A stretch of 64,000 nt of DNA from Pseudomonas fulva 12-X (GTDB lineage: Bacteria > Pseudomonadota > Gammaproteobacteria > Pseudomonadales > Pseudomonadaceae), in the NCBI RefSeq assembly GCF_000213805.1, contig NC_015556.1, forward strand, positions 4,856,770 through 4,920,769, read 5' to 3'. A program made the position numbers and the translations under genes. Position 1 is the stretch's first letter, and every line of letters begins with the position of its first letter. The notes beneath the pieces are model-generated. The model worked only from the letters and a program-made list of their open reading frames with translations. It made no database searches and was not told where the DNA came from. Below are positions 734 to 60,976 of the stretch, piece after piece.

Positions 734-1614
734 CACAGGCTCCTCAGCATGCGCCACAGCGCCAGGCTGCCGGCCGCCTGCAGCACGAACGCCAGAAACA
801 GCACCATGCGCCCCGTGGACTCATGCCACATGCCCAGCATGAACTGCGGGTTGGTGACGAAGATGTACAGGGCCAGGGCCAGCGGCAAACCGCCCATCAC
901 ATAGGCGCTGATGCGCGTCTCGCCGGTCAGCGCACGCAGGCGACGCGCGCTGTGTTCACGCTCACGAATCAGGCGGATCAGGTTGTTGAGCAGTTCGCTG
1001 CTGTTGCCGCCGTAACGCTGGTTGACCCGCACGCCCAGGGCCAGCACCTGAAATTCATCACGCTCGTAAAGGTCGGCGAAATCCTGCAGGGCATCGCCCA
1101 GGCTCATGCCCCGCTGCACGTTGCGCCGGGTGCGGGCCATGGCGCTGCGTAGCGGTTGCGGGGCCGTTTCCATGGCCAGCATCAGGGCGTCGCCCAATGG
1201 CCGGCCGGACTTGAGGCTACGAATCACATGGTCGAGAAACACCGGCAACTGCTCGATCATGCGCAGCACCCGGCGCCGGTAACGCAGGGCGATGAACAGC
1301 CGGCCAAGCAGCAGCGGGCCGAGCAGCATGATCAACAGGCCCAGCCAGTGCCCGACGATCAGCCCCAGCACGGCGCCCAGCAACCAGATGAACAGCCACA
1401 GGCGCAGGCCCTGGCTCGGTTTGCTGAAACCAGCGCGCAGCAGCAGCTTGTCCAGATGGCTGATGACCGCCGCCTGCAAGGGCTCCGGCTGGTCGGCCAA
1501 CAGACGCTGCAGCACCTGCTCCGAAGCGGCCTGGTCGCGGCTCTTGCGTAGCATCAACAGCCCCAGGCCCAGAAGCGTCAGGCAGATGATTCCCAGCAAT
1601 ATCGGTGCAGTCAT
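733..1614 (-). CDS. tadB: TadB-type inner-membrane pilus assembly protein
   Basis: The protein has 293 residues and a type II secretion F domain. It has an N-terminal membrane anchor (residues 3-22), a pair of hydrophobic segments around residues 72-110, a cytoplasmic helical domain (about 115-250, with LPVFLDHVIRSLKSGRPLGDAL and the conserved RYGGN) and C-terminal membrane helices near 240-285. Together with TadC it forms the inner-membrane platform of the Flp pilus machine. It starts 20 bases after the stop of tadA, and its stop overlaps the tadC start, which fits a single operon. Length and topology are normal for the family. Assignment as TadB rather than TadC rests on gene order. Confidence 0.92.
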   Translation of the reverse strand: MTAPILLGIICLTLLGLGLLMLRKSRDQAASEQVLQRLLADQPEPLQAAVISHLDKLLLRAGFSKPSQGLRLWLFIWLLGAVLGLIVGHWLGLLIMLLGPLLLGRLFIALRYRRRVLRMIEQLPVFLDHVIRSLKSGRPLGDALMLAMETAPQPLRSAMARTRRNVQRGMSLGDALQDFADLYERDEFQVLALGVRVNQRYGGNSSELLNNLIRLIREREHSARRLRALTGETRISAYVMGGLPLALALYIFVTNPQFMLGMWHESTGRMVLFLAFVLQAAGSLALWRMLRSL

Positions 1615-1634
1615 CAGGGCGCTCCTTGCCAGCC

Positions 1635-2876
1635 TCAGTCGCGGCGCAACTTGTGCCCGGCCGGGTTCGGCGCGTCGCGGCAGAAGGTGCCGCTGCCCGT
1701 GCGGTCGAGACGGAACAGGGTGTTGATGACGTACTGATCTTCACGCAGGCCGAGCACCTCCACCACCTCACTGACGCAGCGGCGGCCATCGGGCAGGCGG
1801 GTCAGCTGGATGACTACATCCAACGCCGCGCAGATGGTCTGCCGCAGGGTACGCTCGCCCATCTTGGCGCCGGAGAAGCCGACCAGGGTTTCCAGGCGCA
1901 GCAGGGCGTCCTGGGCGTTGTTGGCGTGCACGGTGCTCATCGAGCCGTCGTGGCCGGTGTTCATGGCGGTCAGCACGTCGAGCACCTCGGCGCCGCGGAT
2001 CTCGCCCAACACGATGCGGTCCGGGCGCATGCGCAGGGCGTTGCGTACCAGCTCACGGGCGGCGATCTGGCCGAAGCCCTCGGCATTCGGCGGCCGGGTT
2101 TCCAGGCGCACCACGTGGTCGTGCAGCAGCTCCAGCTCGGCGGTGTCCTCGATGGTGACGATGCGCTCGCGGGGGTCGATCATCTGGCTGAGCATATTCA
2201 GCAGCGTGGTCTTGCCGGTGCCGGTGCCGCCGCTGACCATGATGTTGCAGCGCCGCCGGACCATCAGCTCCAGACAGCTGAGAATCGCCTGATCCAGCGA
2301 ATTGCTGGCCAGCAGGTCGGCGCTGCGCAGCATGTCCTTGCGGAACTTGCGCACCGAGATGCACGGGCCGTCCAGCGCCACCGGCGGGATGATGGCGTTG
2401 ATACGGCTGCCATCGGGCATGCGCGCATCGACCATCGGCGAGGATTCGTCCAGGCGCCGGCCCACTGGGGCGAGAATGCGCTGGATGACCCGCAGCACGT
2501 GCTGATCATCAATGAAACGCAGGTCGCTGAGCTGCAACACCCCGCCTCGCTCGACGAACACCCGATGCGGGCCGTTGACCAGAATTTCGCTGACCGCGTC
2601 GTCCTTGAGAAGAATTTCCAGCGGGCCGAAGCCGGTGAGTTCGTCGACCAGCTCCTCGGCCAGACGATCCACCTCATAACGGGAAATGGCGATCTGCCGG
2701 CGACTGACGTATTCACTGACCTGCTCGGAGACGAACAGCGCCAGAGCGGTGCGCGTACCTTCCAGCAGGTTCTCGCCCTTGTCTTCCAGGGCATCGATCA
2801 GATAGCGGTGCAGCACCGGTTTGAGATCGTGCACGCCGATCCGCGCACTGCTACCGCCGAATGGTCCTATGGGCAT
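1635..2876 (-). CDS. tadA: TadA/CpaF secretion ATPase of the Flp pilus
   Basis: This is a 413-residue hexameric secretion ATPase of the GspE/VirB11 superfamily. The Walker A motif GGTGTGKTT lies near residue 215. The family Asp box (TIEDTAELEL), Walker B region (ILGEIRGAEVLD) and His box (HDGSMSTVHAN) follow in the expected order. It drives assembly of the Flp pilus from the cytoplasmic face. I chose the ATG at 2876, which overlaps the tadZ stop as ATGA; an in-frame upstream start would add only 10 residues lying inside tadZ. The CpaF-type N-terminal domain (LTGFGPLEILLKDDAVSEILVNG) is present. No truncation or missing catalytic residue is seen. Confidence 0.95.
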   Translation of the reverse strand: MPIGPFGGSSARIGVHDLKPVLHRYLIDALEDKGENLLEGTRTALALFVSEQVSEYVSRRQIAISRYEVDRLAEELVDELTGFGPLEILLKDDAVSEILVNGPHRVFVERGGVLQLSDLRFIDDQHVLRVIQRILAPVGRRLDESSPMVDARMPDGSRINAIIPPVALDGPCISVRKFRKDMLRSADLLASNSLDQAILSCLELMVRRRCNIMVSGGTGTGKTTLLNMLSQMIDPRERIVTIEDTAELELLHDHVVRLETRPPNAEGFGQIAARELVRNALRMRPDRIVLGEIRGAEVLDVLTAMNTGHDGSMSTVHANNAQDALLRLETLVGFSGAKMGERTLRQTICAALDVVIQLTRLPDGRRCVSEVVEVLGLREDQYVINTLFRLDRTGSGTFCRDAPNPAGHKLRRD

Positions 2877-4048
2877 CAGTTGTTCCTCAGCAGGCGGCGC
2901 CACCACGAACCGGCTGCGCCGTGGCGGGGCTCGAACAGGCCGTTGGCCAGAGCCAGCAGGCCCTGGGTCAGGCCGTCACGGGGGGCGAACTCGAACAGCG
3001 GCACGCCCTGGTTCTTGGCCTTGAGGCGGGTGACCGGGCTCAGCGGCAGGCCGGCTTCGAGCGGCAGCGCGAAGGTCTTGCTGAGCTCCGGCAACCCAGG
3101 CGCCACCGCAGGCTGGTAACGGTCGACCAGGAGCCGCGCGTGGTCGAGTTTGATGCCCTTGCTGCGCCACAGGTTGAGCAGCGCCAGGTTGCGCCGGCAG
3201 TTGGGCACGCTCTGGTCGACGCACCAGAACATGCGCTGCGCGTGGTTGACGAAGGAGCGCAGGCCATCGCAGTCCGGCTGGCCGCACAGATTAACGAACA
3301 CGTGCTGGAAATGCTGGCGCAGACTGCCCAGCAGCAGGAACAGCTCGCCGAGGCTGAAGCGCTCCAAGGCGTCGTCGTCCGGGCCGTGGGGCAACACGCG
3401 CAGGCCATCGGGATGGCGGGCGAAGGCGCTTTCGATCAGGTTGGAATCCAGACGGCGGATATGGCGCAGCGCATCGCCGAAGCAGAACGACGACTCCATG
3501 CCGAACAGCTCCAGGCTTTCGCCGCGCGGAATGCCCAGGTCGACGTACAGCGTGCGCTGACCACGGGCCTGGATCTGCAGGGCCAGATGCACGGCCAGCA
3601 GCGCCGCGTCGGCATCCGGCTGCAGGCCGTAGAGCAGCGTCAGCTCACCCTGCTCGCGGGACGGCGGCAGCTGCGGCAGGCGCTGGGTCAGACGGCGCAC
3701 GAGCCCCAGCACCTCGCTGCTGCGCGAGCCATAGGCAATGAAATCCCGTGCACCGGCGCGCATGGCGTTGAGCACCAACTGGTTGTCCAGACCGTCGCCC
3801 AGGGCTACCACCACGACCATCGGACGCATGTCGAGCAGCGCCTCGATCAGCGCGCACTGGCCGGTCTGCCCCTCACGGCTGAGGCCGACGAACACCAGGC
3901 AGCTGCCGGTCATGTCCATCAGGCCCAGCACTTCGTCGAGGGTGTCGCCGACGTTGAGCACCTGGCCCTGGCCGGCCAGCGCCGCCTGCAGCCATTCCAG
4001 GTCCTGTTTGCGACGGGTCTGCGCGAGAAAGATCTGTTCCATGACCAC
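2876..4048 (-). CDS. tadZ: TadZ/CpaE-like pilus localisation protein
   Basis: This 390-residue protein belongs to the TadZ/CpaE family, which is related to ParA/MinD ATPases and positions the Tad machine at the cell pole. The first 130 residues resemble a receiver-like domain (VVVVALGDGLDNQLVLNAMRAGARDFIAYG), and the rest a P-loop-like fold (LLYGLQPDADAALLAVHLALQIQARGQRTLYVDL). The P-loop position reads LQPDADAALLA, without the lysines of a normal Walker A motif. This suggests an ATP-hydrolysis-deficient member, as seen in several TadZ proteins. It lies 3 bases after rcpA and overlaps tadA, inside the operon. A second in-frame ATG two codons downstream is an alternative start. Confidence 0.88.
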   Translation of the reverse strand: MVMEQIFLAQTRRKQDLEWLQAALAGQGQVLNVGDTLDEVLGLMDMTGSCLVFVGLSREGQTGQCALIEALLDMRPMVVVVALGDGLDNQLVLNAMRAGARDFIAYGSRSSEVLGLVRRLTQRLPQLPPSREQGELTLLYGLQPDADAALLAVHLALQIQARGQRTLYVDLGIPRGESLELFGMESSFCFGDALRHIRRLDSNLIESAFARHPDGLRVLPHGPDDDALERFSLGELFLLLGSLRQHFQHVFVNLCGQPDCDGLRSFVNHAQRMFWCVDQSVPNCRRNLALLNLWRSKGIKLDHARLLVDRYQPAVAPGLPELSKTFALPLEAGLPLSPVTRLKAKNQGVPLFEFAPRDGLTQGLLALANGLFEPRHGAAGSWWRRLLRNN

Positions 4049-4051
4049 TCC

Positions 4052-5290
4052 CTAGCGCGACAGGCCGTCGGGGCGAAGAAAATCGCCGTTCTCGAGAAAC
4101 AGCTGGCGGAACACACCCGGATCGTAATTGCGATACTGCTCGCCCGGCAGATCCGGCAGCTGCACGTTGGCCGCCAGGGGCTGCACCAGGCGCGGGGTGA
4201 CCACCATCAGCAGCTCGCGCTCGTCGCGCTCGATGCGCGAGGAGCGAAAGAACGCACCGAGCACCGGCACGTCGCCAAGGAATGGCAACTTATCCACAAC
4301 CGAGGAGCTGTTGGTGGAAATCAGCCCGCTGATCACGAAGCTCTCGCCATCGGCCAGGGACACGCTGGTGTCGGTGCGCCGCACGTTGAGCGCCGGAACC
4401 TGGGTGCCGGCGATGGTGATGCCGGCGGTGAAATCCAGCTCGCTGACCTCGGGCGCCACCTTCAGGCTGATGCGATTGCGCCCCACCACAGTGGGCGTGA
4501 TGGTCAGGCGTACGCCGAACTCCTTGTACTCGATGGACAGCGAATCGCTGCCGCTGCTGGGCACCGGAATCGGGAATTCGCCACCAGCCAGGAAGCTCGC
4601 ACTCTGGCCGTTGAGCGCCACCAGGCTGGGCTGCGCCAGGGTGTAGGCGAAGCCGCTGTTTTCCAGGGCATCGAGGCCAAGCAGGAACTTGCTGCTGCCA
4701 CCGCCCCAAAGGATGTTGAAGCCATCGCGCGACAGCGGAAACGATGCGCCGGGGCCTACACCACTGACGCCACCGACAGGCACGGTCGCCGGCCCGGTGC
4801 CAGGCGCGCCGATCAGAAAATTGTTGGACGCGGTGCCAAAGATGCGCAGGCCCACCTCACGCAGCTTGCTGCGCCGCACTTCGACAAAGCGGATATCGGT
4901 CTGCACCTGGCTCGGCACGAGCTCTTCATCGAAGCGCACCAGCGGCTCGGCGAGCGCAGCCGTGGCGGCGCCCTGCACCAGCACCTGACTCTGCCGCGGT
5001 TCGCGGTCACAGGCCGTCCACACCAGCAGGCTGGTGCTACCGCCGCGCTTGCCGACCAGCAGGAAGCTGTCCTTGCTGTTGAGGCTGACGTCCGCCACCT
5101 CCGGGTCGCCAATCGCCAGACGGGTGATGGGCACCGCAAAGCGCAGTTCGCTCTGCATGCCCTGGGTCACCTCCAGCACCGCCGGTACCGGCTCCAGGCC
5201 GGCGCAGGAGGCGAACGCCGCACCCGGTAGCGCGAGCATGGCCGCCACCAGGCTCGTCAACAGACGGGAAATGCGCAGACCATCGTTCAT
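4052..5290 (-). CDS. rcpA: RcpA/CpaC outer-membrane secretin of the Flp pilus
   Basis: This is a 412-residue secretin-family channel through which the Flp pilus crosses the outer membrane. The ATG at 5290 opens a clear signal peptide (ISRLLTSLVAAMLALPGAAFA). An N-terminal domain of the pilus-assembly type follows (VPITRLAIGDPEVADVSL, DSFLLVGKRGGSTSLLVW), then the secretin domain with the hallmark stretch RRTDTSVSLADGESFVISGL and VPVLGAFFRS near the C-terminus. The open frame extends upstream, but that part only mirrors rcpC. It is 19 bases downstream of rcpC and 3 bases upstream of tadZ. No separate rcpB gene is present between rcpA and tadZ. Confidence 0.93.
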   Translation of the reverse strand: MNDGLRISRLLTSLVAAMLALPGAAFASCAGLEPVPAVLEVTQGMQSELRFAVPITRLAIGDPEVADVSLNSKDSFLLVGKRGGSTSLLVWTACDREPRQSQVLVQGAATAALAEPLVRFDEELVPSQVQTDIRFVEVRRSKLREVGLRIFGTASNNFLIGAPGTGPATVPVGGVSGVGPGASFPLSRDGFNILWGGGSSKFLLGLDALENSGFAYTLAQPSLVALNGQSASFLAGGEFPIPVPSSGSDSLSIEYKEFGVRLTITPTVVGRNRISLKVAPEVSELDFTAGITIAGTQVPALNVRRTDTSVSLADGESFVISGLISTNSSSVVDKLPFLGDVPVLGAFFRSSRIERDERELLMVVTPRLVQPLAANVQLPDLPGEQYRNYDPGVFRQLFLENGDFLRPDGLSR

Positions 5291-5309
5291 CGCGTTGCTT
5301 CCTTGCCGA

Positions 5310-6260
5310 TCAGGGCGTTTGCCGGGTGGCGTCATTGCCGCGGTACACCGGGATACCGGCAGGCGCCTGGCGTACCGGCTCGGGCTGGGCGACGGGCGCC
5401 GGTGCGGGGCCGCGCACGGCCAGTTGCTCGAACTGGAACAGCTGGCGTTGCACCTCGCCGACATCGGCCTGGGGCTCTTTTCCAGCGTAGTAATCCGCCA
5501 GGCGCTTTTCATCCGCGCTGCGCACCGCCAGGCGCAGGCTACCCACCTGGGTGGCGAGCATGAAACGCGTGAGCAGGGCTTCGGGAACGGCCAGTACGGC
5601 AGTGGTCGGGGCGTTGCGACGACGCCGGCGTTCTTCGTCGGCATCAGCCGGTAGCTGGGCGGCTTCGCCTTCGTTGGTAATGCCCAGGGTGTCGCCGACG
5701 CTCAGCAGGCGCAGCGCCGGAATCACCACCTGGGCAGTCTGCTCGGCATTGCCCTCGCCCTGACGCAAGTAGATCAGCACGTCGACGTAATCGCCCGGGC
5801 TCAGGTGGCCGCCGCCGCCGATCACTTCATCCACGGCCACGGCCAGAGCCCGCTCATGGGGGCGAATCATCCGTGCCAGGGGCCCGGCCATTTCGAAGGC
5901 AGCCTGGCTCAACACGGTGCCGGCCGGCATGGGCTGCCACAGGGAGCGACCGATCAATTGCTCGGGGCTGGCAAAGCTGCCTGGTGGTGCGATACGCAGG
6001 CGCTCCACGGCAAGGTCATCACGGGTGATGGGCGCCAGTGCCTGCACAGCCCTGGCCAGCACCACAACATTGACGCGCTGCTGCTCATCGACCTGGGCCT
6101 GCAACTGGCTGCCGACTGCAGCCGCTGGCGCCACAACGGGCGCAGATGGCAAGGCTGCCGGCTGTGCATGCTGCCGACCGAGGGTGATGCCCCAATAGCC
6201 GGTGATCACCGCACCCACCAGCAGCACGCCGGCCAGCACCAGCGTCAATCGACTATTCAT
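5310..6260 (-). CDS. rcpC: RcpC/CpaB pilus assembly protein
   Basis: This 316-residue protein is of the RcpC/CpaB type, a periplasmic component with an SAF (antifreeze-like, beta-clip) domain, involved in Flp pilus assembly with the RcpA secretin. A membrane anchor (LTLVLAGVLLVGAVITGYWG) is followed by a proline/alanine linker, then VVLARAVQALAPITRDDLAVERLRIAPPGSF and PHERALAVAVDEVIGGGGHLSPGDYVDVLI, both characteristic. The ATG at 6260 is preceded by an AAGGAG ribosome site; the longer open frame upstream lacks one. It is the first gene of the minus-strand Tad operon, divergent from the flp pilin gene across a 379-bp control region. Confidence 0.92.
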   Translation of the reverse strand: MNSRLTLVLAGVLLVGAVITGYWGITLGRQHAQPAALPSAPVVAPAAAVGSQLQAQVDEQQRVNVVVLARAVQALAPITRDDLAVERLRIAPPGSFASPEQLIGRSLWQPMPAGTVLSQAAFEMAGPLARMIRPHERALAVAVDEVIGGGGHLSPGDYVDVLIYLRQGEGNAEQTAQVVIPALRLLSVGDTLGITNEGEAAQLPADADEERRRRRNAPTTAVLAVPEALLTRFMLATQVGSLRLAVRSADEKRLADYYAGKEPQADVGEVQRQLFQFEQLAVRGPAPAPVAQPEPVRQAPAGIPVYRGNDATRQTP

Positions 6261-7398: not shown

Positions 7399-10110
7399 AT
7401 GCAGGACCACGACGCACGGATTGCCCGCCTGCTGGCCTTCTACCGCAGCGCCTACCTGGCCGACAGCCGCGACCTCAATCTCGACAATCTCTCCGCACTG
7501 CCGGCAGGCCGCCTGGCCTGGCTCGATGGCCGCGAAGAGCTGGCCAGCGGCGCCCTGCCATTACTGGCGCTGCCACCGGGCATCGGCGCCGAACTGGAGC
7601 GCCAGCAGCGCCTCTATCAACGCGAACTGCAGCTGGTCTACGGCGTGTTGCCGGTATGCGGACGACTCACTGGCGAGGGCGGCCCGTCGACGGCGTTCTG
7701 CGCACCGCTGGTTTACTACGAGGCCAGCCTGAACAACGGCAGCGAAGGCGACGCCCATCTGCTGGCCATCGACCCCAGCCAGCCGCTGGCGAACTGGCGT
7801 CTGCTACGCCAGCTGATCGACGGCGACAATGCCTTGCTCGACGACCTGCCGCTGGCCGATGCACCCATCGACGCCCATGTGCTGGGCGATCTGCTGGGCT
7901 GGATAAGCCAGCGTACGAAGGTGACTGACGTACTCACCGCCAGCGGTTTCCCGGCTCTGGAAGACCAGGATTCGGTGACCAAGGCTCTGCGGCGCCGCAG
8001 CCTGTCGCTGCGCGCCGCGGCCGTCGTCGCGCTGGTGCCACGGGGCAGCGGCAGCCGCGGTATCGTTCATGAGTTGCAGCAATTGCAGGAAACCCGCGAA
8101 TGGTCGGCGCCCTTACGCCAGCTGCTCGGCGAGCCGCAGCCGCCAGCACCTCAGGGTGAAAGCTCGCCCGAAGCCCTGCCGGCCCAGCTCAGCAATGCCC
8201 AGAGCCAGGCGCTGGCCAACGCCGCGCGCTACCCGCTGAGCCAGATTTCCGGCCCGCCTGGCACCGGTAAAAGCTACACCCTGGCCGCCCTGGCGCTGGA
8301 CCGTTATCTGCACGGCGAATCGGTGCTGCTGGTCAGCCGTAGCGCCCAGGCGGTGCGGGTCATCGGCCAGAAACTGCGCGAGGATTTCGGCCTGCGCGAT
8401 GCGGTGCTGGAAAGCGACGGCGGCAGCCTGCAGCAAACCCTGCGCGACCGTCTGGCCAGCCTGCTGCAGGGGCAGGTGCCAGCCACATCGACCGATGTCG
8501 AGCAAGGCCTGCAGCGCGAATTGCGCCACCTGATCAAACTCGAACGGCGCCAGGCCAGGGATCTGGCGACCCGCTGCGGGCAGGCGCTGCGCTGGAGCCG
8601 GCTGATCCTCAAGGCCGAGCGCGGCACCCTGGATGTCGTCAGGCGTCACCTGCTACTGCCCTGGGTGCGCTGGCGTGTGCGCGACAGCGTGCGGCCCTGG
8701 GCGTTGCTCGACGAACTGCGCGACTGCCAGCAGCGTCGTGAGCGCCTGAGCCGTGACTACATCAATGCGCGTCGCGCCTCGAGCCTGGGCGGTCTGCTGG
8801 CGGGCAAGCGCCAGCTGTTCGTGCAGTACAACCAGGCAATTCGCGCCCGCCAGTCGCAACGGCAACTGGCGCTTTTCGAGGACATCAACCCGCAGACGCT
8901 GCTGGCCGCCTTTCCGATCTGGGTGGTGACCCTCGATGAGCTGCACCGCCTGCTGCCGCTCAAGGCCGGGCTGTTCGACGTGATGGTGATGGACGAAGCC
9001 ACCCAGTGCGATATCGCCTCGGCGCTACCGGCCTTCCAGCGTTGCCGCCGCGCGGTGATCACGGGTGATGCCCGGCAGCTGCGCCACCTGTCGTTCCTGT
9101 CGCGCAACCGCGAGGTTCAGTTGCTGCAGCGCAGCGGCCTGCCAAGTGAAGAACGCGAGCGCTGGAGTTACCGCGACAACAGCGTGCTCGACCTGGTGGG
9201 CCTGTACCTGCCGGAGCAGAGCGCGCTGACCTTTCTCGACGAGCATTTTCGCAGCCGCCCGGCGTTGATCCGCTTCAGCAACCAGTGGTTCTACGCCAAC
9301 CGCCTGCGGGTGATGAAGGAGCGCCCGAGCCTGGCCCACTGCGACAGCCTCCAGGTACAGCGCCTGGACGGTGAGCGCGCGCGCAATGGCGTCAACCAGG
9401 TGGAGCTCGAACGCGTGCTGCAGCTGGTCGACGAACACATCACCCGCTACGCCGACAGCCCGGTCAAGCCGAGCATCGGCGTGGTATCGCCGTTTCGCGA
9501 TCAGGTCGACGCGATCCGCCAGCGTATCGCCGATCTCGACCTGCAGCGCCTGCGCGATTTTCGTGTGCTGGTGGATACGCCCTACGGCTTTCAGGGCGAG
9601 GAGCGCGACCTGATGATCATCAGCTTCGCACTCGACGCCAATGCCAGCCAGGCCGCGGCGTACCTGAACCGCCCGGATATGTTCAACGTGGCGATCACCC
9701 GGGCCCGCGAGCGTCAGGTGCTGCTGTTCAGCGGCGACGAACGCCAGCTGCCCACCGACCATCTGCTGCGCCGTTACCTGGAAAGCGCCAGCGAAACGCC
9801 GACGGCCACTCACCAGCAACCCGAGCAGGATGCGTTCGAAACCGCCCTGTGTGCGGCGCTGCAGGCGCACGGCGTGACCACCTGGACTCGTTACCCGCTG
9901 GCTGGCCTGCTGCTCGATGTGTTCTGCCAGCGCGGCGACAAGTGCCTGGCCATTGACCTGATCGGCTTTCCCGGCGAGGGCGAAGGCTTTCTCGAACTGG
10001 AGCGCTACCGCGTGCTGGCACGCGCCGGTCTGGAAGTGTTGCCGCTGAGCTACGGGCTGTGGAGCCAGGAACCGGAGCGCGCGCTGCAGGCACTGCTGCA
10101 GCGCCTGTAG
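7399..10110 (+). CDS. Superfamily 1 DNA/RNA helicase with C-terminal nuclease-like domain
   Basis: This 903-residue protein resembles the Upf1/DNA2-type SF1 helicases. Walker A is GPPGTGKS at residues 285-292 and Walker B is DEATQ near 532. Further motifs are visible: GDARQLRHLSF (motif III), DEHFRSRPALI (IV), GVVSPFRDQVDAIR, YGFQGEERDLMIIS (V) and NVAITRARERQVLLFSG (VI). The last 90 residues (FETALCAALQAHGV ... LLLDVFCQ ... CLAIDLIGF ... LERYRVLARAGLEVLPLSY) look like the small PD-(D/E)xK-type REase domain often fused to such helicases, although the catalytic acids cannot be confirmed by eye. The first 280 residues are not recognised. It is a lone gene, 117 bases after the receiver gene. Substrate unknown; DNA repair or defence are both possible. 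Confidence 0.85.
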   Translation: MQDHDARIARLLAFYRSAYLADSRDLNLDNLSALPAGRLAWLDGREELASGALPLLALPPGIGAELERQQRLYQRELQLVYGVLPVCGRLTGEGGPSTAFCAPLVYYEASLNNGSEGDAHLLAIDPSQPLANWRLLRQLIDGDNALLDDLPLADAPIDAHVLGDLLGWISQRTKVTDVLTASGFPALEDQDSVTKALRRRSLSLRAAAVVALVPRGSGSRGIVHELQQLQETREWSAPLRQLLGEPQPPAPQGESSPEALPAQLSNAQSQALANAARYPLSQISGPPGTGKSYTLAALALDRYLHGESVLLVSRSAQAVRVIGQKLREDFGLRDAVLESDGGSLQQTLRDRLASLLQGQVPATSTDVEQGLQRELRHLIKLERRQARDLATRCGQALRWSRLILKAERGTLDVVRRHLLLPWVRWRVRDSVRPWALLDELRDCQQRRERLSRDYINARRASSLGGLLAGKRQLFVQYNQAIRARQSQRQLALFEDINPQTLLAAFPIWVVTLDELHRLLPLKAGLFDVMVMDEATQCDIASALPAFQRCRRAVITGDARQLRHLSFLSRNREVQLLQRSGLPSEERERWSYRDNSVLDLVGLYLPEQSALTFLDEHFRSRPALIRFSNQWFYANRLRVMKERPSLAHCDSLQVQRLDGERARNGVNQVELERVLQLVDEHITRYADSPVKPSIGVVSPFRDQVDAIRQRIADLDLQRLRDFRVLVDTPYGFQGEERDLMIISFALDANASQAAAYLNRPDMFNVAITRARERQVLLFSGDERQLPTDHLLRRYLESASETPTATHQQPEQDAFETALCAALQAHGVTTWTRYPLAGLLLDVFCQRGDKCLAIDLIGFPGEGEGFLELERYRVLARAGLEVLPLSYGLWSQEPERALQALLQRL

Positions 10111-51968: not shown

Positions 51969-52613
51969 CTAAACCGAGCGACGCAGTATCAACAGATGGC
52001 GCTGGCCTTGGCAACCGGGAACCTTGAGCACGTGGGTGGCGGTGAGACGGAAGTCCGCCGGCAGCGCCTGCAGCTCATCGTCCGGGTGCACGCCTTTCAT
52101 GGCCAGCCACTGGGTGTGGCCATCGCCCAGGTGGCGCGTCCAGTTGGAGAAATCTTCCAGTGAGCTGAACGCCCGCGAGCAGATACCGCTGAACGGCTGC
52201 TCGGGCGTAAAGGCTTCCACTCGACTGTGGATAACATCGAGATTGGTCAGCTTGAGCTCGAGCTTCACCTGGGTGAGGAAGCGCGTCTTCTTGCCATTGG
52301 AATCGAGCAAAGTAAAGCGCCGCTCGGGAAACAGGATGGCCAACGGGATGCCCGGCATGCCGCCGCCACTGCCGACGTCCAGCCAGTTATCCCCAGCCTC
52401 GGCGACGAAAGGCACCACGCTGAGGCTGTCGAGCAGATGGCGCGACACCATCTCGTCCGGATCGCGCACGGCGGTCAGGTTGTAGGCCTTATTCCACTTG
52501 ATCAGCAGCGCCAGGTAACCCAGCAGCTGCGTTTGCTGCTGCTCGGTCAGATCGACGCCCAGTTCACGGGCGCCTTGTTGCAGTTCTTCGGCGTGGCGAG
52601 CGGTAACGGACAT
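51969..52613 (-). CDS. rsmG: 16S rRNA m7G527 methyltransferase RsmG
   Basis: The 214-residue protein methylates G527 of 16S rRNA using SAM. The SAM site is [16 protein letters not shown] (about residues 77-92), preceded by [28 protein letters not shown], the GidB signature. The start overlaps the mnmG stop as ATGA. Confidence 0.98.
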
Positions 52614-54505
52614 CAGGCGCTCTGCTCCAGCTGGCGACCAGCGCCGCGCTTTTTCAGATGGATCAGCAGCAGCGAGATAGCCGCCGGGGTGACACCCGGA
52701 ATCCGCGAGGCCTGACCGAGGGTCTGCGGCCGAGCGTTGCCGAGTTTGTGCTGGATCTCCTTGGACAGCCCGGAAATGGTCGCGTAGTCGATATCCACAG
52801 GCAGCTCAGTTTCCTCACTGGCGCGCAAGCGGGCGATCTCGTCCTGCTGACGCTCGATGTAGCCGGCGTATTTGGTCTTGATCTCCACCTGCTCGGCGAC
52901 CTGGGGATCTTCGGCGCCTTCGCCAGTCACTTCGACCAGGCCGGCATAATCGACTTCCGGGCGCGACAGCAGGTTGAGCAGGTTGTACTCGTGGGTCAGC
53001 GGCGTGCCGAAGCGCTCGACGATGGCCTCGCCCTGGGGCGTGTTCGGGCGCACCCAGGTGCTTTTCAGGCGCTGCTCTTCCTTGGCGATGGCTTCGCGCT
53101 TTGCCTCGAAGGCTGCCCAGCGGGCGTCGTCGACCAGACCCAGCTCGCGGCCTTTCTCGGTTAGGCGCAGATCGGCGTTGTCTTCGCGCAGGATCAACCG
53201 GTATTCGGCCCGCGAAGTGAACATGCGGTACGGCTCCTGGGTACCCAGGGTGATCAGGTCGTCGACCAGCACACCGATGTAGGCTTCGTCACGGCGTGGG
53301 CACCATGCCTCTTTGCTCTGGGCGCGCAGCGCGGCGTTGGCACCGGCGAGCAAGCCCTGGGCCCCGGCTTCTTCGTAACCGGTGGTGCCGTTGATCTGGC
53401 CGGCGAAGAACAGGCCACCGATGACCTTGGTCTCGAGGCTGTACTTGAGGTCGCGCGGGTCGAAGTAGTCGTATTCGATGGCGTAGCCCGGGCGCACGAT
53501 ATGGGCGTTTTCCATGCCGCGGATGCTCTGCACGATCTGCAACTGCACATCGAACGGCAGCGACGTGGAAATCCCGTTGGGGTACAGCTCATGGGTGGTC
53601 AGGCCTTCCGGCTCGATGAACACCTGGTGGCTGTCCTTCTCGGCGAAGCGATGGATCTTGTCCTCAATCGACGGGCAATACCGCGGGCCCACGCCTTCGA
53701 TCACCCCCGAGTACATCGGCGAGCGGTCGAGGTTGGCAGCGATGATCTCGTGGGTGCGCGCATTGGTGTGGGTGATCCAGCAACTCACCTGGCGTGGGTG
53801 CTGTTCCTTGTTGCCCATGAACGACATCACCGGAATCGGCGTATCGCCCGGTTGTTCGGTCATCTGGGTGAAGTCGACCGAACGACCGTCGATGCGTGGC
53901 GGCGTGCCGGTCTTCAGGCGACCGACGCGCAGCGGCAATTCACGCAGGCGCTTGGCCAGGGAGATCGAGGGCGGATCCCCTGCACGGCCGCCAGAGTAGT
54001 TCTGCAGGCCGATGTGGATAAGTCCACCGAGGAAGGTGCCGGTGGTCAGCACCACGGAGTCGGCGAAGAAACGCAGCCCCATCTGGGTGACCACACCTTT
54101 GACTTCGTCCTGTTCGACGATCAGGTCATCGGCGGCCTGCTGGAATATCCACAGGTTGGGCTGGTTTTCCAGAATCTCGCGTACTGCCGCCTTGTACAGA
54201 ATGCGGTCAGCCTGGGCACGAGTGGCACGTACTGCCGGGCCTTTACGGCTGTTGAGCACGCGGAACTGGATGCCGCCCAGATCGGTAGCGGTCGCCATGG
54301 CGCCGCCGAGGGCGTCGATTTCCTTGACCAGGTGGCTCTTGCCGATCCCGCCAATGGCCGGGTTGCAGCTCATCTGCCCGAGGGTTTCCACGTTGTGGGT
54401 CAGCAGCAGGGTTTTCACGCCCATGCGCGCCGCTGCAAGCGCAGCCTCGGTACCGGCATGACCGCCGCCGATGACGATCACTTGAAAACGGGAAGGGAAA
54501 TCCAC
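52613..54505 (-). CDS. mnmG: tRNA uridine-34 modification enzyme MnmG (GidA)
   Basis: The 630-residue FAD enzyme works with MnmE to add carboxymethylaminomethyl groups to U34 of tRNAs. The FAD site [21 protein letters not shown] is at the N-terminus; [23 protein letters not shown] and the C-terminal [35 protein letters not shown] are intact. I chose the GTG at 54505 (reading MDFPSRF), placed behind GAGGTG; the open frame extends 50 codons upstream but does not match the family. mnmE is normally adjacent; here it is displaced by an RHS gene and a non-coding region. Confidence 0.97.
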
Positions 54506-54674
54506 CACGCACCTCGTGCCTGTTGAGAAGGGAGCTTTTAGGAAAGGGCGGCAAGTATAGGGATTTAGCAGGGCTGAAAGAAGCCTTTTGCACAAAAAAT
54601 AGCCAACTGGTCTTGCCTTCAAGAAAGGAGCGTTTGGTTGCGGACCGTTTCCCATTGGTACGTGGTGCAGGGCT

Positions 54675-55044: not shown

Positions 55045-55500
55045 TTACTGGGGAGCGCGAGCGCCCTGCTCGATCATCTTCTTCATGAGCGTGTCGGATT
55101 TGACGTCATAGCGAAACAGCAGAGGCTTGCCGTCCACATTTTCCAGGTAAAAGGATTCGGTGCCCTCCCCCTCGGCAAAGCGGGTGTTGTACAGCAGCAG
55201 GGTAAGCGGCTGTCCGGTATCGGCCTTCACGGAAGCCTGGCTCATCAACCGTGTTTCCTGCGGTTCTCCCAAACCACGATTGACCACCGTCAGCAGGTCG
55301 ACGAATTCCTGCTCGCTGGCATTGGCTTTCAAGCCTTGCCCCGAAGCCTGGTAGATGGCCGCGTAGCGACCCTGCTGCATATCCTGATGGAATCGTTCCA
55401 CGTAGTCGTTGCCGGCGCTGGTGAAGTCATCATCACCTGCCGAGCAGCCGATCAAGAGCACGCAGCCCAGTGCCGCCAGGGCTTTGCCGATCCAGTTCAT
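55045..55500 (-). CDS. Small lipoprotein, likely immunity partner of the RHS protein
   Basis: The 151-residue protein has a lipoprotein signal peptide (IGKALAALGCVLLIGCSAGDDD, lipobox LIGC). Its helical/beta body resembles small periplasmic proteins (AAIYQASGQGLKANASEQEFVDLLTVVNRGLG, LLLYNTRFAEGEGTESFYLENVDGKPLLFRYDVKS), possibly of a DUF4019-like fold. It begins 1 base after the rhs stop, with its GAGGGATT ribosome site inside the rhs end. This is the position of immunity genes in RHS modules. Specific function is inferred only from this position; the Asp residues after the Cys could favour inner-membrane retention, though Lol rules differ in Pseudomonas. Confidence 0.7.
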   Translation of the reverse strand: MNWIGKALAALGCVLLIGCSAGDDDFTSAGNDYVERFHQDMQQGRYAAIYQASGQGLKANASEQEFVDLLTVVNRGLGEPQETRLMSQASVKADTGQPLTLLLYNTRFAEGEGTESFYLENVDGKPLLFRYDVKSDTLMKKMIEQGARAPQ

Positions 55501-55501
55501 A

Positions 55502-58500
55502 TCAATCCCTCAAACAAATCTGTTTTTGTTCACAGGCCATCACGCCGCCAGAAGCACCACCTCCGATGCTCGCGCCGCCACTTACCGTGACGTTGCTGGG
55601 TTTGCCTATTTCGGACATCACACTGCCGCCAAATTTTCCCAGGAATCCGCCACCGCCAAACACGCCGACGCTTTTTGTCGTACCACTGGTTGGAGGCGCG
55701 TTGCTTGCCGATACGTTGCCGCCGACACCGAAGGACGCACCGGGGCCAAGCGTTCCACAGGTCGTGTAATACACGCAGAGGTTGAACCACTGGTCCTTCT
55801 TCTTTTTTCCTGTGGCTATGCCGAAGGCGCCAGAGCCACCGCCACCAGCGTTACCCGCCATGCTGACATCGGCCGAAATGGAACCCTCGAAGCCTCGAGT
55901 TGGATACAGCGCCTCGCTGACCTGCTCCGGTGTCGCACCGTTCTGGTACATGTACTGAGCCAGCGAAACCTGCTGCTGTATGCCAGGGCTATTGGTGATG
56001 AAATCCCACAGCCCTAGGGGATCCACGCCCAGCGTCGGCAGCTCCGTATAGCGATAGGTGTTCACGCCGGCCAGCAGTCCCAGTGGGTCCTGGGTCAGAT
56101 AGCGCCCGGCCTGCGGATCGTAGTAGCGGAAGCGGTTGTAATGCAGGCCGCTTTCCACATCCAGGTACTGACCCTGGAAGCGAATCGGCTGATCCGTGCT
56201 GCCCTGTTCGTTACCGATGGCATGCCAATCGCTCGATTCGCCGCTCCACAGCAGGTTGCCGTGGGTGTCGGTCAGGCGCAGCGGCGTACCCAGATGATCG
56301 GTGTGGAAGAACGCCAGATGCAGATTCTCGCCCGCAGGGCGCATCTCCTCTGGTAGAGGCTGCCCTTCGTGGCCCAACTGCCGGCGGATCTCCAGAACCT
56401 CGGCACTTTCCTGCTGGCGTAGCTGTTCCATACGTAACAAAGGGACGAAGCTGTTTGGCTGATGCACGGTGGTGCGCAACCGATCTGTGTGCGCTTCAGC
56501 GCACTGACGATGGTTGTCCCAACCGTAATAAGTGCGTTGTTGCTGGCCATCGCGCCACACGTCCTTGGCGATGCGCCGCGACAGGCCGTCATAGTGATAA
56601 CGGGCCTGCAGCGTCCGACCATCGGATTCGACACGCTGTAGATGAACCAGGCGGTTGGCGCCGTCATAGCCGAACAGCATACGGGCTCCATCGGGCTCGA
56701 CGCGCTCGATCAAGTTGCCGACTCTGTCATAGCGGAACTGGTAGCCGTCCAGATGAGCGATACGGTTATCCGCGCAGTGTTGGCCAAAGTTATCCACACG
56801 GTTACCGGCCGGATCGAAGTGGTAGTAACGGGAAAGATCACCCTGCGTGCTTGCGACTAGACGGCCAGCCTGGTCGTAGCGGTACTCGATAACCGGCGCG
56901 GTAGTGTCATGGATAGAAACGAGGTCGCCCTGAGCGCCGTACTGATAGCGACGCTGCCACTGTGCTCCGCCTGAGGTTTTCAGTGCACCGGCAATCAGTC
57001 GGTTGGCCTGATCGTGTTGGCGGGACTCGCTGAACAGTACGCTGCCATCGGTTCGGCGGCGGGCATCGCGATGGATCTCCCGGTGGCCGGCATCACGTTC
57101 GAAGGCCAGCTCGACCGCGTCGACCACCACGCCGTGCAGATACCCTGATCCATAGAGTAGCCAGTTGACCCGCGGGGCATCACCGTAGCGGCTGCTTTCC
57201 CTGTTGCCCAATGGGTCGAGCTGATGCTCAACGTCGTATACCCAGTCTGTGCCGAGGGTTTGCAGCTCATGGACGATCCGACCGGCCGCGTCATACCTGA
57301 AGCGCACATCGCTGTCCTGGGATTTCACACCCAGTAGCTGACCTCCGGGGCTCCAAGTATAGCTTTCGCTGAACGCTTCGGCATGCTCGGTGGCGGGCAG
57401 ATGCCGACACAGCAACCTGCCCTGCGCATCGTATTCGAAGCGGATCAGGCGGCCTTCGTCATCACGTTCTTCCAGCAGGTTGCCGGCCGCATCGTAACGG
57501 TACTGGCGAACGCGGCCGTCGAGATCCTGCTGCTGAATCAGGCGATCCACTTCGTCGTAGGCAAAGCGAATCTGTGCGCCGTTCTCGTTCTGCACACTGA
57601 TCAGGCGCCCTGCCGGGTCATAGGCGTAGTGCTGGGTACCGCCGTTCGGGTTGGTCAGGCTGGTCAGCCTGTTGAAGCGGTCCCAGGTAAAGCTCGCCTG
57701 CTTGCCCTGGCTGGCAGCCCCAACCATGCGGCCAAGGTGATCGTAGGTGAAGTCGATCTGGGTACCATCGGGCTCGACTCGTCTGAGCGAACGGCCCATG
57801 GCGTCGCGTTGATAGCGAACGCATTGTCCGAGTGGCCCCGTTTGCGAAATCAGCCAGCCATTACTGTCGTATTCGCAGGTTGTGGTGTGCCCGGAACAGT
57901 CGGTGTAGCGCTCCAGGGCGCCAAAACGATTCCAGGCCAGGTGCCGCGTACCGCCTTTGCCATCGGTGATCGTTGTCGGGCGATCGGGCAGACGTGGATC
58001 CCGATACGCCCGTTGTGTCTGCGCACCCAGCGGGTCGATAAAGCTGATCAGATTGCCGCGCTCGTCGCGCAGCATCTGCCATTCATGGTCGTCAGCGTTG
58101 CGTATGCCGGTGACGAAGCCGTTGCCGTCATCAAGAAAGTAGCGAGTACCGGTCTTGCCGGGTTCCTCGAGCTCTGCTCGCATGCCCTCGCCATTGAAGC
58201 GCGCCTGCATGACCCGCTGCAGCGGGTCCTTGATGGTCGACAGGCGGCCGTAAGCATCGTAGGTGAATTCGATGCGACTGCCGTCGGCCCGTTCGTGGGC
58301 GACCCACTGACGATCGGCGCTTTGGCCTTCGAACAGATAGAGCTCGCGCCGGCCAAGGTTATCGACCACTTCGGTATGGTTTGGCTCGTAGTGATAGGCG
58401 CGGCTCAGGCCATCGCGTTCGATCTGCCGGATGACCTTGCCGCAAGGCTCATATCTGTCCCATTCGTAACGGACTTCGAGGCCTTCTGGCTGTGCATGAG

Positions 58501-59404
58501 CCACCAGCATATGGTTCTGCCACTCGAAGCGACGCGTCACCTGCCCCATGCGGTTACGCACTTCGATGAGATCGCCACTGTCGTTGAAGCTGTAAGTCAC
58601 CAGCCAGTCGAGCCCCGGCTGGGTTGGATCGAGGCCAACAGGCAGCGGGCCGTCCGGATTGCCGAGAATGACCCCGTACAGACGCAGCCCCGAATCGCCG
58701 GGAACCGGCTCGCCCACCTGTTGATAAATAAAGGCGTAGCTGCGCCCGGCACTGTCCCTTACGCAGGACAGGCTGCCCGAGGCATTCCAGCTGTATTCGG
58801 TGCGGTAGCCATTGCGATCGAAGCTGGCGTGCAGCAGCCAGCTCCCCTCGCCGTTACGCAGAAAGTGCAGGAACACCCGCTCGCGCAGCACCACCACCGA
58901 GCCCTCGTGCTGCTGCACGGACAGCGGCACGCCGGTCCACTTGCTGCTCCAGGGCTCAAACGACTGCTCGGGACTATTGCCACCGCGGCGAATCCACAGC
59001 AGCTCGCTACCGGAATAGAACGCAGCGCCTGGCGCCAATGCCGGGAAGCCGATACGCCGGCCCTGGGAATCGATCAGTGCTGTGTGCTCATCGCATACTT
59101 CCAGCCCCAGCCCTTCGGCGGGCAACGCCCAACCCTGGCCCAGGCTGCCGATGCGCTCATTACTGGAGACATACATTCGCATGAAGGCGAAAGGGATGGG
59201 CGCTGGCAGCGAGAAATCCACTTCACCCGGAAGAATCTTCACGCCCAGCATTGGGTTGACCGGCTGGCCGGTTGCCGGGCCACACGCCGAAGGACGGTCG
59301 GCCTTGCCGACGGCGGTGCTGCCCACGAAGACATTGGGCGAGCCGGAAACGATCACGGAACCGGCCACCTTGTGACCGATATGAGAAACCGGGAGGCCAC
59401 TCAT
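55502..59404 (-). CDS. PAAR-RHS polymorphic toxin (type VI effector type)
   Basis: This 1300-residue RHS protein has a short N-terminal PAAR-like segment (PVSHIGHKVAGSVIVSGSPNVFVGSTAVGKAD) that would cap a type VI secretion VgrG spike. Next come DUF6531/RHS beginning (GVKILPGEVDFSLPAPIPFAFMRMYVSSNER), many YD repeats (YDAAGNLLEERDDEGRLIRFEYDAQGRL) and the core closure PxxxxRYLTQDPLGLLAGVNTYRYTELPTLGVDPLGL, with the conserved aspartate of the self-cleaving part. The variable tip of 168 residues (from 1133) is Gly/Ser rich with a KKKK stretch and four Cys (VYYTTCG, NLCVYY, MACEQKQICLRD) and is not a toxin type I know. It is inserted between mnmE and mnmG. Confidence 0.9.
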   Translation of the reverse strand: MSGLPVSHIGHKVAGSVIVSGSPNVFVGSTAVGKADRPSACGPATGQPVNPMLGVKILPGEVDFSLPAPIPFAFMRMYVSSNERIGSLGQGWALPAEGLGLEVCDEHTALIDSQGRRIGFPALAPGAAFYSGSELLWIRRGGNSPEQSFEPWSSKWTGVPLSVQQHEGSVVVLRERVFLHFLRNGEGSWLLHASFDRNGYRTEYSWNASGSLSCVRDSAGRSYAFIYQQVGEPVPGDSGLRLYGVILGNPDGPLPVGLDPTQPGLDWLVTYSFNDSGDLIEVRNRMGQVTRRFEWQNHMLVAHAQPEGLEVRYEWDRYEPCGKVIRQIERDGLSRAYHYEPNHTEVVDNLGRRELYLFEGQSADRQWVAHERADGSRIEFTYDAYGRLSTIKDPLQRVMQARFNGEGMRAELEEPGKTGTRYFLDDGNGFVTGIRNADDHEWQMLRDERGNLISFIDPLGAQTQRAYRDPRLPDRPTTITDGKGGTRHLAWNRFGALERYTDCSGHTTTCEYDSNGWLISQTGPLGQCVRYQRDAMGRSLRRVEPDGTQIDFTYDHLGRMVGAASQGKQASFTWDRFNRLTSLTNPNGGTQHYAYDPAGRLISVQNENGAQIRFAYDEVDRLIQQQDLDGRVRQYRYDAAGNLLEERDDEGRLIRFEYDAQGRLLCRHLPATEHAEAFSESYTWSPGGQLLGVKSQDSDVRFRYDAAGRIVHELQTLGTDWVYDVEHQLDPLGNRESSRYGDAPRVNWLLYGSGYLHGVVVDAVELAFERDAGHREIHRDARRRTDGSVLFSESRQHDQANRLIAGALKTSGGAQWQRRYQYGAQGDLVSIHDTTAPVIEYRYDQAGRLVASTQGDLSRYYHFDPAGNRVDNFGQHCADNRIAHLDGYQFRYDRVGNLIERVEPDGARMLFGYDGANRLVHLQRVESDGRTLQARYHYDGLSRRIAKDVWRDGQQQRTYYGWDNHRQCAEAHTDRLRTTVHQPNSFVPLLRMEQLRQQESAEVLEIRRQLGHEGQPLPEEMRPAGENLHLAFFHTDHLGTPLRLTDTHGNLLWSGESSDWHAIGNEQGSTDQPIRFQGQYLDVESGLHYNRFRYYDPQAGRYLTQDPLGLLAGVNTYRYTELPTLGVDPLGLWDFITNSPGIQQQVSLAQYMYQNGATPEQVSEALYPTRGFEGSISADVSMAGNAGGGGSGAFGIATGKKKKDQWFNLCVYYTTCGTLGPGASFGVGGNVSASNAPPTSGTTKSVGVFGGGGFLGKFGGSVMSEIGKPSNVTVSGGASIGGGASGGVMACEQKQICLRD

Positions 59405-59533
59405 GCTGTAGTCCTTTACTGAAGCTATCTGAAGGCGCCGATTGTAGCTGCCGCAGGATCAGACTATCCCGCTCAGCTAGCGTTCCCGCTAGCACGCGGT
59501 GGCGGACTTATCCACAGCGCGTTCCGCGAATCC

Positions 59534-60901
59534 TTACTTACCGATGCAGAAGCTGGAAAAGATCCGGCCCAGCAGGTCATCGGAACTGAATGCCCCGGTG
59601 ATCTCGCCCAAGGCCTGCTGAGCCTGGCGCAGGTCTTCGGCAAGCAGTTCTCCGGCGCCGGCCAGGGTCAGTTGCGCGTGGCCATGGTCGAGGTGGCGTT
59701 GCGCCTGGTGCAGGGCGTCCAGGTGGCGGCGGCGGGCGCTGAAACCGCTCTCGGCGGTCTGCTGGAAACCCATGCAGGCCTTCAAGTGTTCGCGCAGCAG
59801 TTCCAGGCCTTCGCTGGATTTGGCCGAGAGCGCCAGGGTGGCCTGGCCATCGGCGGCGTTGTGCAGCGCCACCAGTTCGCCGGACAGGTCCGCCTTGTTG
59901 CGAATCAACGTAACTCGAGCCATATCCGGCCGCTGCTGCAGAAATTCGGGCCACAGGGCGAAGGGATCGGCCGCCTCCGGCGCCGTCGAGTCGACGACCA
60001 GCAGCACGCGGTCCGCTTCGCCGATGGCTTTCAGGGCGCGCTCCACACCGATGCGCTCGACCTGGTCCTCGGTATCGCGCAGTCCGGCGGTATCGACCAC
60101 ATGCAGCGGCATACCATCGATGTGGATATGTTCGCGCAGAACGTCACGGGTAGTGCCGGCGATATCGGTGACGATGGCCGCCTCACGCCCGGCGAGGGCA
60201 TTGAGCAGGCTGGACTTGCCGGCATTCGGCCGGCCGGCAATGACCACCGTCATGCCGTCGCGCAGCAAAGCGCCCTGCCCGGCTTCACGCAAAACTGTGG
60301 ATAACTGTTCACGCACGCCTTCGAGCAAGCTCAGTACGTGGCCATCGGCGAGGAAGTCGATTTCTTCCTCGGGAAAATCGATGGCGGCCTCCACATAGAT
60401 GCGCAGGGCAATCAATCGCTCGGTCAGTTCGTGCACGCGCCGGGAGAACTCGCCCTGCAGCGAGCGCACGGCATTACGCGCCGCCTCGGCCGAGCTGGCT
60501 TCGATCAGGTCGGCGATGGCTTCGGCCTGGGCCAGGTCGAGTTTGTCGTTGAGGAATGCCCGCTCGCTGAATTCACCCGGGCGCGCCTGGCGGGCACCGA
60601 GCTCCAGGCAGAGTTGCAGGAGCATGTCCAGCACCACCGGGCCGCCATGGCCCTGCAGCTCGAGCACGTCTTCACCGGTGAACGAATGGGGCCCGGGGAA
60701 AAATAGCAGCAGGCCTTCGTCGATCACTTCGCCGGCATCGTCATGCCAGGCGCCGTGATGGGCATGCCGCGGTTTGGGCTCGATGCCGCTCAGGGTGATT
60801 GCGATCATCCGCGCCCGAGGGCCGGAGACTCTGACGATACCCACGCCGCCACGCCCCTGGGCGGTGGCGACGGCGGCGATGGTTTCACGGGGGGCGGACA
60901 T
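59534..60901 (-). CDS. mnmE: tRNA modification GTPase MnmE
   Basis: This 455-residue GTPase works with MnmG on U34 of tRNA. An N-terminal tetrahydrofolate-binding domain ([18 protein letters not shown]) is followed by a G domain with the P-loop [10 protein letters not shown] (about residue 223), [13 protein letters not shown] and NKAD. It ends in the conserved FCIGK, whose Cys is essential. I chose the ATG at 60901, as [11 protein letters not shown] matches the family. A DnaA-box sequence lies just after its stop (59508-59516). Confidence 0.98.
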
Positions 60902-60976
60902 AACGTTCTCCAGACGCTGGATAGCAGAACGCCCCACGAGGGGGCGTCTGTCATGTAGCGGGTGAAGCGCGAACGC

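Follow-up and report, generated by a model that had tools for sequence, protein, structure and literature searches.

We identified a two-gene unit encoding a putative Rhs effector and its putative immunity protein in a 64,000-nucleotide stretch of the Pseudomonas fulva 12-X genome (NC_015556.1, positions 4,856,770 to 4,920,769; hereafter the window, with positions counted from its first letter). Both genes lie on the minus strand, where rhs (55502-59404, 1300 amino acids (aa)) is followed after 1 base by a gene for a 151-aa lipoprotein (55045-55500). Our reading, which as a whole has about an even chance of being right, is that rhs encodes a type VI secretion system (T6SS) effector of the Tse5 type whose toxin tip is unrelated to that of Tse5 and comes with a dedicated immunity lipoprotein, the tip being an envelope-permeabilising beta-barrel resembling the Vap proteins of Rhodococcus equi. 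The junction GAGGGATTGATATGAAC contains the rhs stop codon TGA (55502-55504), one base, and the lipoprotein ATG (from 55500); a GAGG stretch preceding this ATG sits within rhs. The original prediction, made from the letters alone, had described both open reading frames, the one-base gap and a ribosome site inside rhs, and the frame coordinates and junction letters bear it out. Its wider interpretation is supported in part, namely in assigning the tip to no known family, the lipoprotein to cognate immunity and the action to the envelope; the Tse5 chassis, the predicted Vap-like barrel and the lack of relation between the tip and the Tse5 pore domain were unforeseen.

Among solved structures, Tse5 of P. 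aeruginosa lies nearest to the Rhs protein (8cp6, 1172 bits). For comparison we used a 1319-aa Tse5 orthologue from the Pseudomonadaceae genome G126, which shares 90% identity with Tse5 across a 153-aa probe. Residues 1-47 are 68% identical to this orthologue and the shell 51% (555/1083 aligned residues), and Helical Region 2 (PMC10684867) aligns between the two without gaps. The N-terminal piece is predicted, by analogy, to be cleaved at Q47/P48, and self-cleavage is predicted after L1132 (L1132/W1133). The label PAAR-RHS, under which the gene was first described, does not hold: neither Pfam nor NCBIfam calls a PAAR domain in the protein, and residues 1-47 instead match Tse5-NT, which according to its authors is PAAR-like yet lacks the PAAR motif (PMC9637101). 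The plug domain DUF6531 is matched by PF20148 at 2.3e-16, and this rhs gene holds the only DUF6531 match in its own genome. The same genome contains a PF05943 (TssC-family) match at 284 kb and two PF05954 (VgrG-family) matches.

The Rhs core ends in DPLGL1132 and leaves a tip of 168 aa (residues 1133-1300, 16.7 kDa) with cysteines at 1210, 1216, 1291 and 1297, a KKKK patch at 1200-1203 and the C-terminal end CEQKQICLRD. Re-reading of the translation confirms the core end, tip length, cysteines, lysine patch and glycine richness noted earlier. Glycine makes up 25% of the last 127 residues, against 14% in the richest segment of that length before the tip, and half of the 42 invariant columns in the tip alignment are Gly (17) or Cys (4). 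Profile searches of Pfam, NCBIfam, PADLOC and PHROGs returned no credible match for the tip, as originally proposed, and the lipoprotein immunity is likewise unmatched in these libraries. Pfam and PADLOC contain no known family for the tip, NCBIfam gave one member at a chance-level E of 3.2, and PHROGs gave one family of no known function (E 0.032), confined to the linker. Three full-length relatives carrying the tip region (P0001-P0003) were found among 5.8 billion proteins, and the tip profile matched one short protein, that of L016 (7993 candidates scored). Neither the window tip nor the tip of a distant member described below (L032) matched in the plasmid search; the phage search, in which the L032 tip but not the window tip was queried, also gave no match.

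Given a chassis of the Tse5 type, the tip might be merely another Tse5 pore. This is refuted at the sequence level, and we regard it as scarcely credible. Homology to the orthologue's C-terminal region was rejected (BLASTP E 0.21, hhalign 0.3%); a forced global alignment of the two gives 35/126 identical residues. In the orthologue the C-terminal region (149 aa) starts with a hydrophobic segment of helix length, and the protein encoded next (63 aa) has two segments of this kind, whereas the window tip has none and its partner is a lipoprotein.

Four of 398 Pseudomonadaceae genomes (G000, G336, G261 and G001) hold an accepted tip, and in all four the lipoprotein is adjacent; the lipoprotein itself was matched in seven. 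Nine genomes had matched the tip at E 0.001. One of these, G366, is a remnant, and four were set aside: G255, which shares the linker and little more (in one copy the profile match runs as far as position 106; hhalign past the linker 0.6%), and G074, G098 and G112, with 54 residues at 32-34% in frames of about 500 aa, the G112 region (L030) being unmatched by the tip profile. A scan of 84,980 species, limited by two peptide patterns so that records near the window genome may be missed, matched 44 stretches and confirmed four: L013 (Pseudomonas sp. URMO17WK12:I2), L014 (P. straminea), L015 (P. dryadis) and L016 (Pseudomonas sp. RIT-PI-AD). As L014 is G261 and L016 is G001, the distinct loci holding a close full tip number six (the window, G336, L013, L014, L015 and L016), and the lipoprotein gene directly follows the tip in all six. 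The gap from rhs is 1 base in L013 as in the window, 2 in L014 and L015, and 13 in L016; in G336 the matches to tip and lipoprotein are 10 bases apart, a space taken up by the stop codon together with lipoprotein codons 1 and 2. This pairing at short spacing in 6/6 loci is more than chance would give. The gene mnmG lies downstream in five of the six (the window, L013, L014, L015 and G336). The L013 lipoprotein is identical to that of the window at 130/151 residues. Because tip and lipoprotein identities to the window rank differently (52 and 72 for L014, 57 and 40 for L015), co-divergence was not used as evidence. Against 293 relatives the lipoprotein profile matched three, G000, G261 and G765, the last taken as the genome of L013.

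In two further genomes the lipoprotein persists behind remnants of the tip. In G366 (L027, G366:C55:166000-175000, 4942-5644) the interval between mnmE and mnmG has lost rhs and retains tip fragments and an intact lipoprotein frame, the latter identical to the P. dryadis lipoprotein at 134/159 residues; this interval is an orphan-immunity scar. In G019 (L025, G019:C12:1-14000) a tip-tail remnant with a lipoprotein immediately after it (4694-5297) lies downstream of a different Rhs tip. Retention of an antidote after loss of its toxin is a usual signature of an immunity gene. The G019 island, which has another glycine-rich tip, carries a second, divergent lipoprotein (8318-8776) as well and looks like a polyimmunity array. 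In G255 two stretches (L028, 10090-10569; L029, 2-472) carry a linker like tip residues 1-37 followed by a different glycine-rich tip with two Cys; this is read as tip swapping behind a common linker. The tips precede proteins of 99 and 96 aa with two and one helix-length hydrophobic segments, respectively.

The model of the lipoprotein has an NTF2 fold (predicted local distance difference test (pLDDT) 86; VIA-align). It scores 21.8 bits against DUF4019 (PF13211), below the gathering cut-off of 26.5; among five scanned relatives, one reaches 26.9 bits and four score between 17.9 and 26.1. Zhang et al. 2012 list their two Imm-NTF2 families alongside NucA-like and JAB-2 toxins and call Imm65 the sole lipoprotein immunity in their collection (PMC3482391). 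The earlier assignment of the lipoprotein as immunity partner gains support from the six linked loci and from its persistence behind tip remnants in two more genomes, and the protein is probably the cognate immunity of the tip.

The same linkage favours the proposed periplasmic or membrane site of action. Many Rhs tips work in the cytoplasm, and two further lipoprotein homologues, the second G019 copy and one in G150, occur in Rhs islands where such a tip is lacking, so that the tip could act in the prey cytoplasm beside a bystander lipoprotein gene. Close coupling in 6/6 loci, lipoproteins that outlast their tips, and conserved cysteine pairs that would better suit an oxidising compartment make this very improbable. 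A search of the wider class with the tip matched 4/369 genomes, that of the window included; G700 and G697 were dropped for internal stops, and G663, from another family of the class, was kept as L032. There an Rhs C-terminus, in a frame truncated by the edge of its contig, can be aligned to the tip across 101 columns (hhalign 93%, E 2.4e-7) and retains both C-x5-C motifs. Beginning 12 bases past its stop is a gene for a 68-aa protein with two hydrophobic helix-length segments. Neutralisation by a lipoprotein in one lineage and by a membrane protein in another would best place the toxin at the outer face of the inner membrane.

The structure prediction originally suggested for the tip was run and yields a predicted Vap-like barrel, with no match to the Vap family profile PF05526. 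The model, built from five sequences (pLDDT 75, predicted template modelling score (pTM) 0.62), is an eight-stranded glycine-rich barrel. In VIA-align it matches VapD across 110/113 residues, and the Vap rows outscore those of meander barrels by 3 to 6 Z units. We predict from the model that the strands follow the Vap order (1-2-3-8-5-6-7-4), with beta3 adjoining beta8. The cysteines agree with this order: those numbered 79 and 85 in the model lie on beta3 and 160 and 166 on beta8, on one face, and 79+166 = 85+160 = 245, as expected for a pair of bonds across antiparallel strands. Disulfides C1210-C1297 and C1216-C1291 are thus predicted to staple beta3 to beta8; this clue is only partly independent because the strand assignment comes from the same model. 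A classical beta-barrel pore, with all strands joined to their next neighbours as in outer-membrane proteins, is improbable: besides the higher Vap rows, beta3 and beta8, adjacent in the Vap order, lie apart in a meander, where cross-strand pairing of their cysteines is impossible.

Several observations weigh against a Vap-like, membrane-acting tip. The model draws on only five sequences, with the pLDDT and pTM given above. Even with E allowed up to 10, PF05526 matches none of the five tips; comparison by hhalign with a Vap homologue from Pseudomonadaceae gives 0.3%, and a PDB search with the tip profile yields one unrelated chain and no Vap. Foldseek alone gives a best E worse than 1e-3 and no Vap in the top 50; it ranks GFP-like barrels first, with very poor superposition. 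By DSSP the model lacks a helix between strands 4 and 5, and the tip lacks a C-terminal Trp, both features described for Vap. The cysteines occupy the beta3-beta8 seam where VapD carries a glycine pair (PMC4118825), so the "bald spot" is not reproduced there. Local bonds within each pair, C79-C85 and C160-C166, are also possible. The shell lacks the Predicted Helical Region 1 of Tse5 and its hydrophobic patch is not conserved, so that the membrane docking proposed for Tse5 may not hold here. Finally, a preliminary report cited in PMC10100859 has VapA possibly stiffening membranes, unlike known pore formers.

A viral structure library gave weak rows only, with poor superposition. A sequence relation of the tip to Vap was sought with the PF05526 profile, hhalign and the PDB search and was not found; since PF05526 membership was tested and failed, we leave the tip outside the Vap family and predict only that its build is Vap-like. 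PF05526 has no match in the own genome at E 0.01 and none in 241 genomes of the class, where the scan returned no match anywhere. In 268 Pseudomonadaceae genomes it exceeds the cut-off once (G154, not an Rhs tip), with two others sub-threshold. The G154 homologue is free-standing (L044, 7351-7791, minus strand, 146 aa, E 2.2e-37) and by eye has no obvious signal peptide.

By analogy with Tse5, the N-terminal piece would load the effector onto the VgrG spike, and the shell would enclose the tip and free it at its self-cleavage site. In the prey envelope the tip is predicted to fold as a compact barrel of Vap order whose disulfides form in the oxidising periplasm. Its target would then be the envelope; most likely it would bind the inner membrane and make it permeable, much as VapA treats phagosomal and lysosomal membranes; on the producer's periplasmic side the NTF2-like lipoprotein would block it. 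The pore or membrane-active role first suggested for the tip is plausible, with the modelled Vap-like fold as the structural lead. VapA permeabilises liposomes and collapses proton gradients (PMC10100859, PMC8329714), although how it disturbs membranes is not known according to the VapB authors (PMC8329714); its mode perhaps differs from a classical pore. In the literature searched, no report of VapA killing bacteria appeared by title or abstract among the matches listed.

An envelope toxin that does not permeabilise, either an enzyme of the periplasm that carries no recognised motif or a barrel that binds and blocks an envelope enzyme, is a serious alternative but an unlikely one. Invariant polar residues of the tip (e.g. 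D48, K69, K70, N77, Y81, N104, Q162 and D169) would fit it, the VapD authors weighed enzyme inhibition for Vaps (PMC4118825), and a periplasmic lipoprotein suits any periplasmic toxin. However, we recognised no catalytic constellation among invariant columns so rich in Gly and Cys, and the gene after the L032 tip encodes a two-helix membrane protein, the same arrangement as in Tse5 and Tsi5 (PMC9637101). Returning to the permeabilising barrel, a broader and rather doubtful speculation is that Vap-type barrels are an interbacterial toxin fold: disulfide-stapled, delivered by T6SS Rhs proteins, leaking prey membranes and kept in check by one of two kinds of protein, NTF2-like lipoproteins or membrane proteins with two helices. 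On this view the virulence Vaps of R. equi would be structural analogues of such toxins, or else secreted descendants that have no immunity partner.

Table 1. Features of the rhs-lipoprotein unit (window positions)
Feature	Position	Strand	Evidence
Tse5-NT-like N-terminal piece, residues 1-47	59264..59404	-	8cp6_A (Tse5) E 1.3e-11; 32/47 identical to Tse5 orthologue of G126
Rhs shell, residues 48-1132 (DUF6531 plug 46-120, RHS/YD repeats, Rhs core)	56009..59263	-	PF20148, PF05593, PF03527; TIGR03696; 8cp6_B 1172 bits
Aspartyl self-cleavage motif DPLG-x18-DPLG, residues 1106-1131	56012..56089	-	Pattern search; equivalent of Tse5 motif (PMC10684867)
Tip linker, residues 1133-1173	55886..56008	-	Mostly helical in model; similar linker before different glycine-rich tip in G255
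Glycine-rich toxin domain, residues 1174-1300	55505..55885	-	Predicted eight-stranded Vap-like beta-barrel (pLDDT 75, pTM 0.62; VIA-align; alignments)
C-x5-C, predicted strand beta3 (C1210, C1216)	55757..55777	-	Kept in 5/5 tips of alignment A2 and distant L032
C-x5-C, predicted strand beta8 (C1291, C1297)	55514..55534	-	Kept in 5/5 tips of alignment A2 and distant L032
Lipoprotein, predicted cognate immunity	55045..55500	-	Signal peptide, lipobox LIGC19 (+2 Ser), NTF2-like domain; linkage

The pair is flanked by genes that we take, by recognition, to be mnmE (59534-60937) and mnmG (52613-54655). A 679-aa open frame runs antisense over rhs (57383-59422, plus strand) and is probably a by-product of high G+C content. 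In the P. dryadis locus, positions 1-3037 upstream of rhs hold what by eye we take to be an integrase-like open reading frame, and mnmE has no match within that locus.

The predicted NTF2-like lipoprotein immunity and the predicted glycine-rich beta toxin domain are additions to the Rhs arsenal. In the literature searched, which held few subscription papers, we found nothing on such a tip-lipoprotein pair, including DUF4019 as immunity or an NTF2-like lipoprotein as T6SS immunity, and nothing relevant joining Vap with Rhs, or Rhs with a glycine-rich beta-barrel toxin and immunity; the main text of PMC11751169, on P. aeruginosa T6SS effectors, contains neither "lipoprotein" nor "Vap". If the Vap-like fold is true, it would offer an antibacterial system that is genetically tractable and has an antidote, in which to study how such barrels disturb membranes, and would suggest a further use of a fold termed novel when it was solved (PMC4118825).

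The system is like Tse5/Tsi5, the pore-forming Rhs effector of the P. aeruginosa H1-T6SS and its immunity protein, in its N-terminal piece, DUF6531 plug, Rhs shell, C-terminal self-cleavage motif and tip size (16-17 kDa). It differs in its sequence-unrelated tip, modelled as beta, in a DPxG spacing of x18 rather than x19, in lacking the Predicted Helical Region 1 that Tse5 has, and in an immunity partner that is a lipoprotein where Tsi5 is a two-helix membrane protein. With the R. equi Vaps (PF05526; VapA, VapB, VapD, VapG) the tip shares the modelled eight-stranded glycine-rich barrel and a variable N-terminal region ahead of it. However, it has two Cys pairs, lacks detectable sequence similarity, the C-terminal Trp and the beta4-beta5 helix, and forms the end of an Rhs protein that is paired with an immunity partner. 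The homologues that PMC4118825 lists from E. coli, Clostridium, Halomonas and other bacteria beyond R. equi are small stand-alone proteins, and an E. coli one has been purified (PMC10100859). Such homologues are already in print; what would be new is to find the fold at the tip of an Rhs protein together with an antidote. Compared with the NTF2-like proteins of the Imm-NTF2, DUF4019, DUF3887 and MecA_N families, the window member differs in being a lipoprotein.
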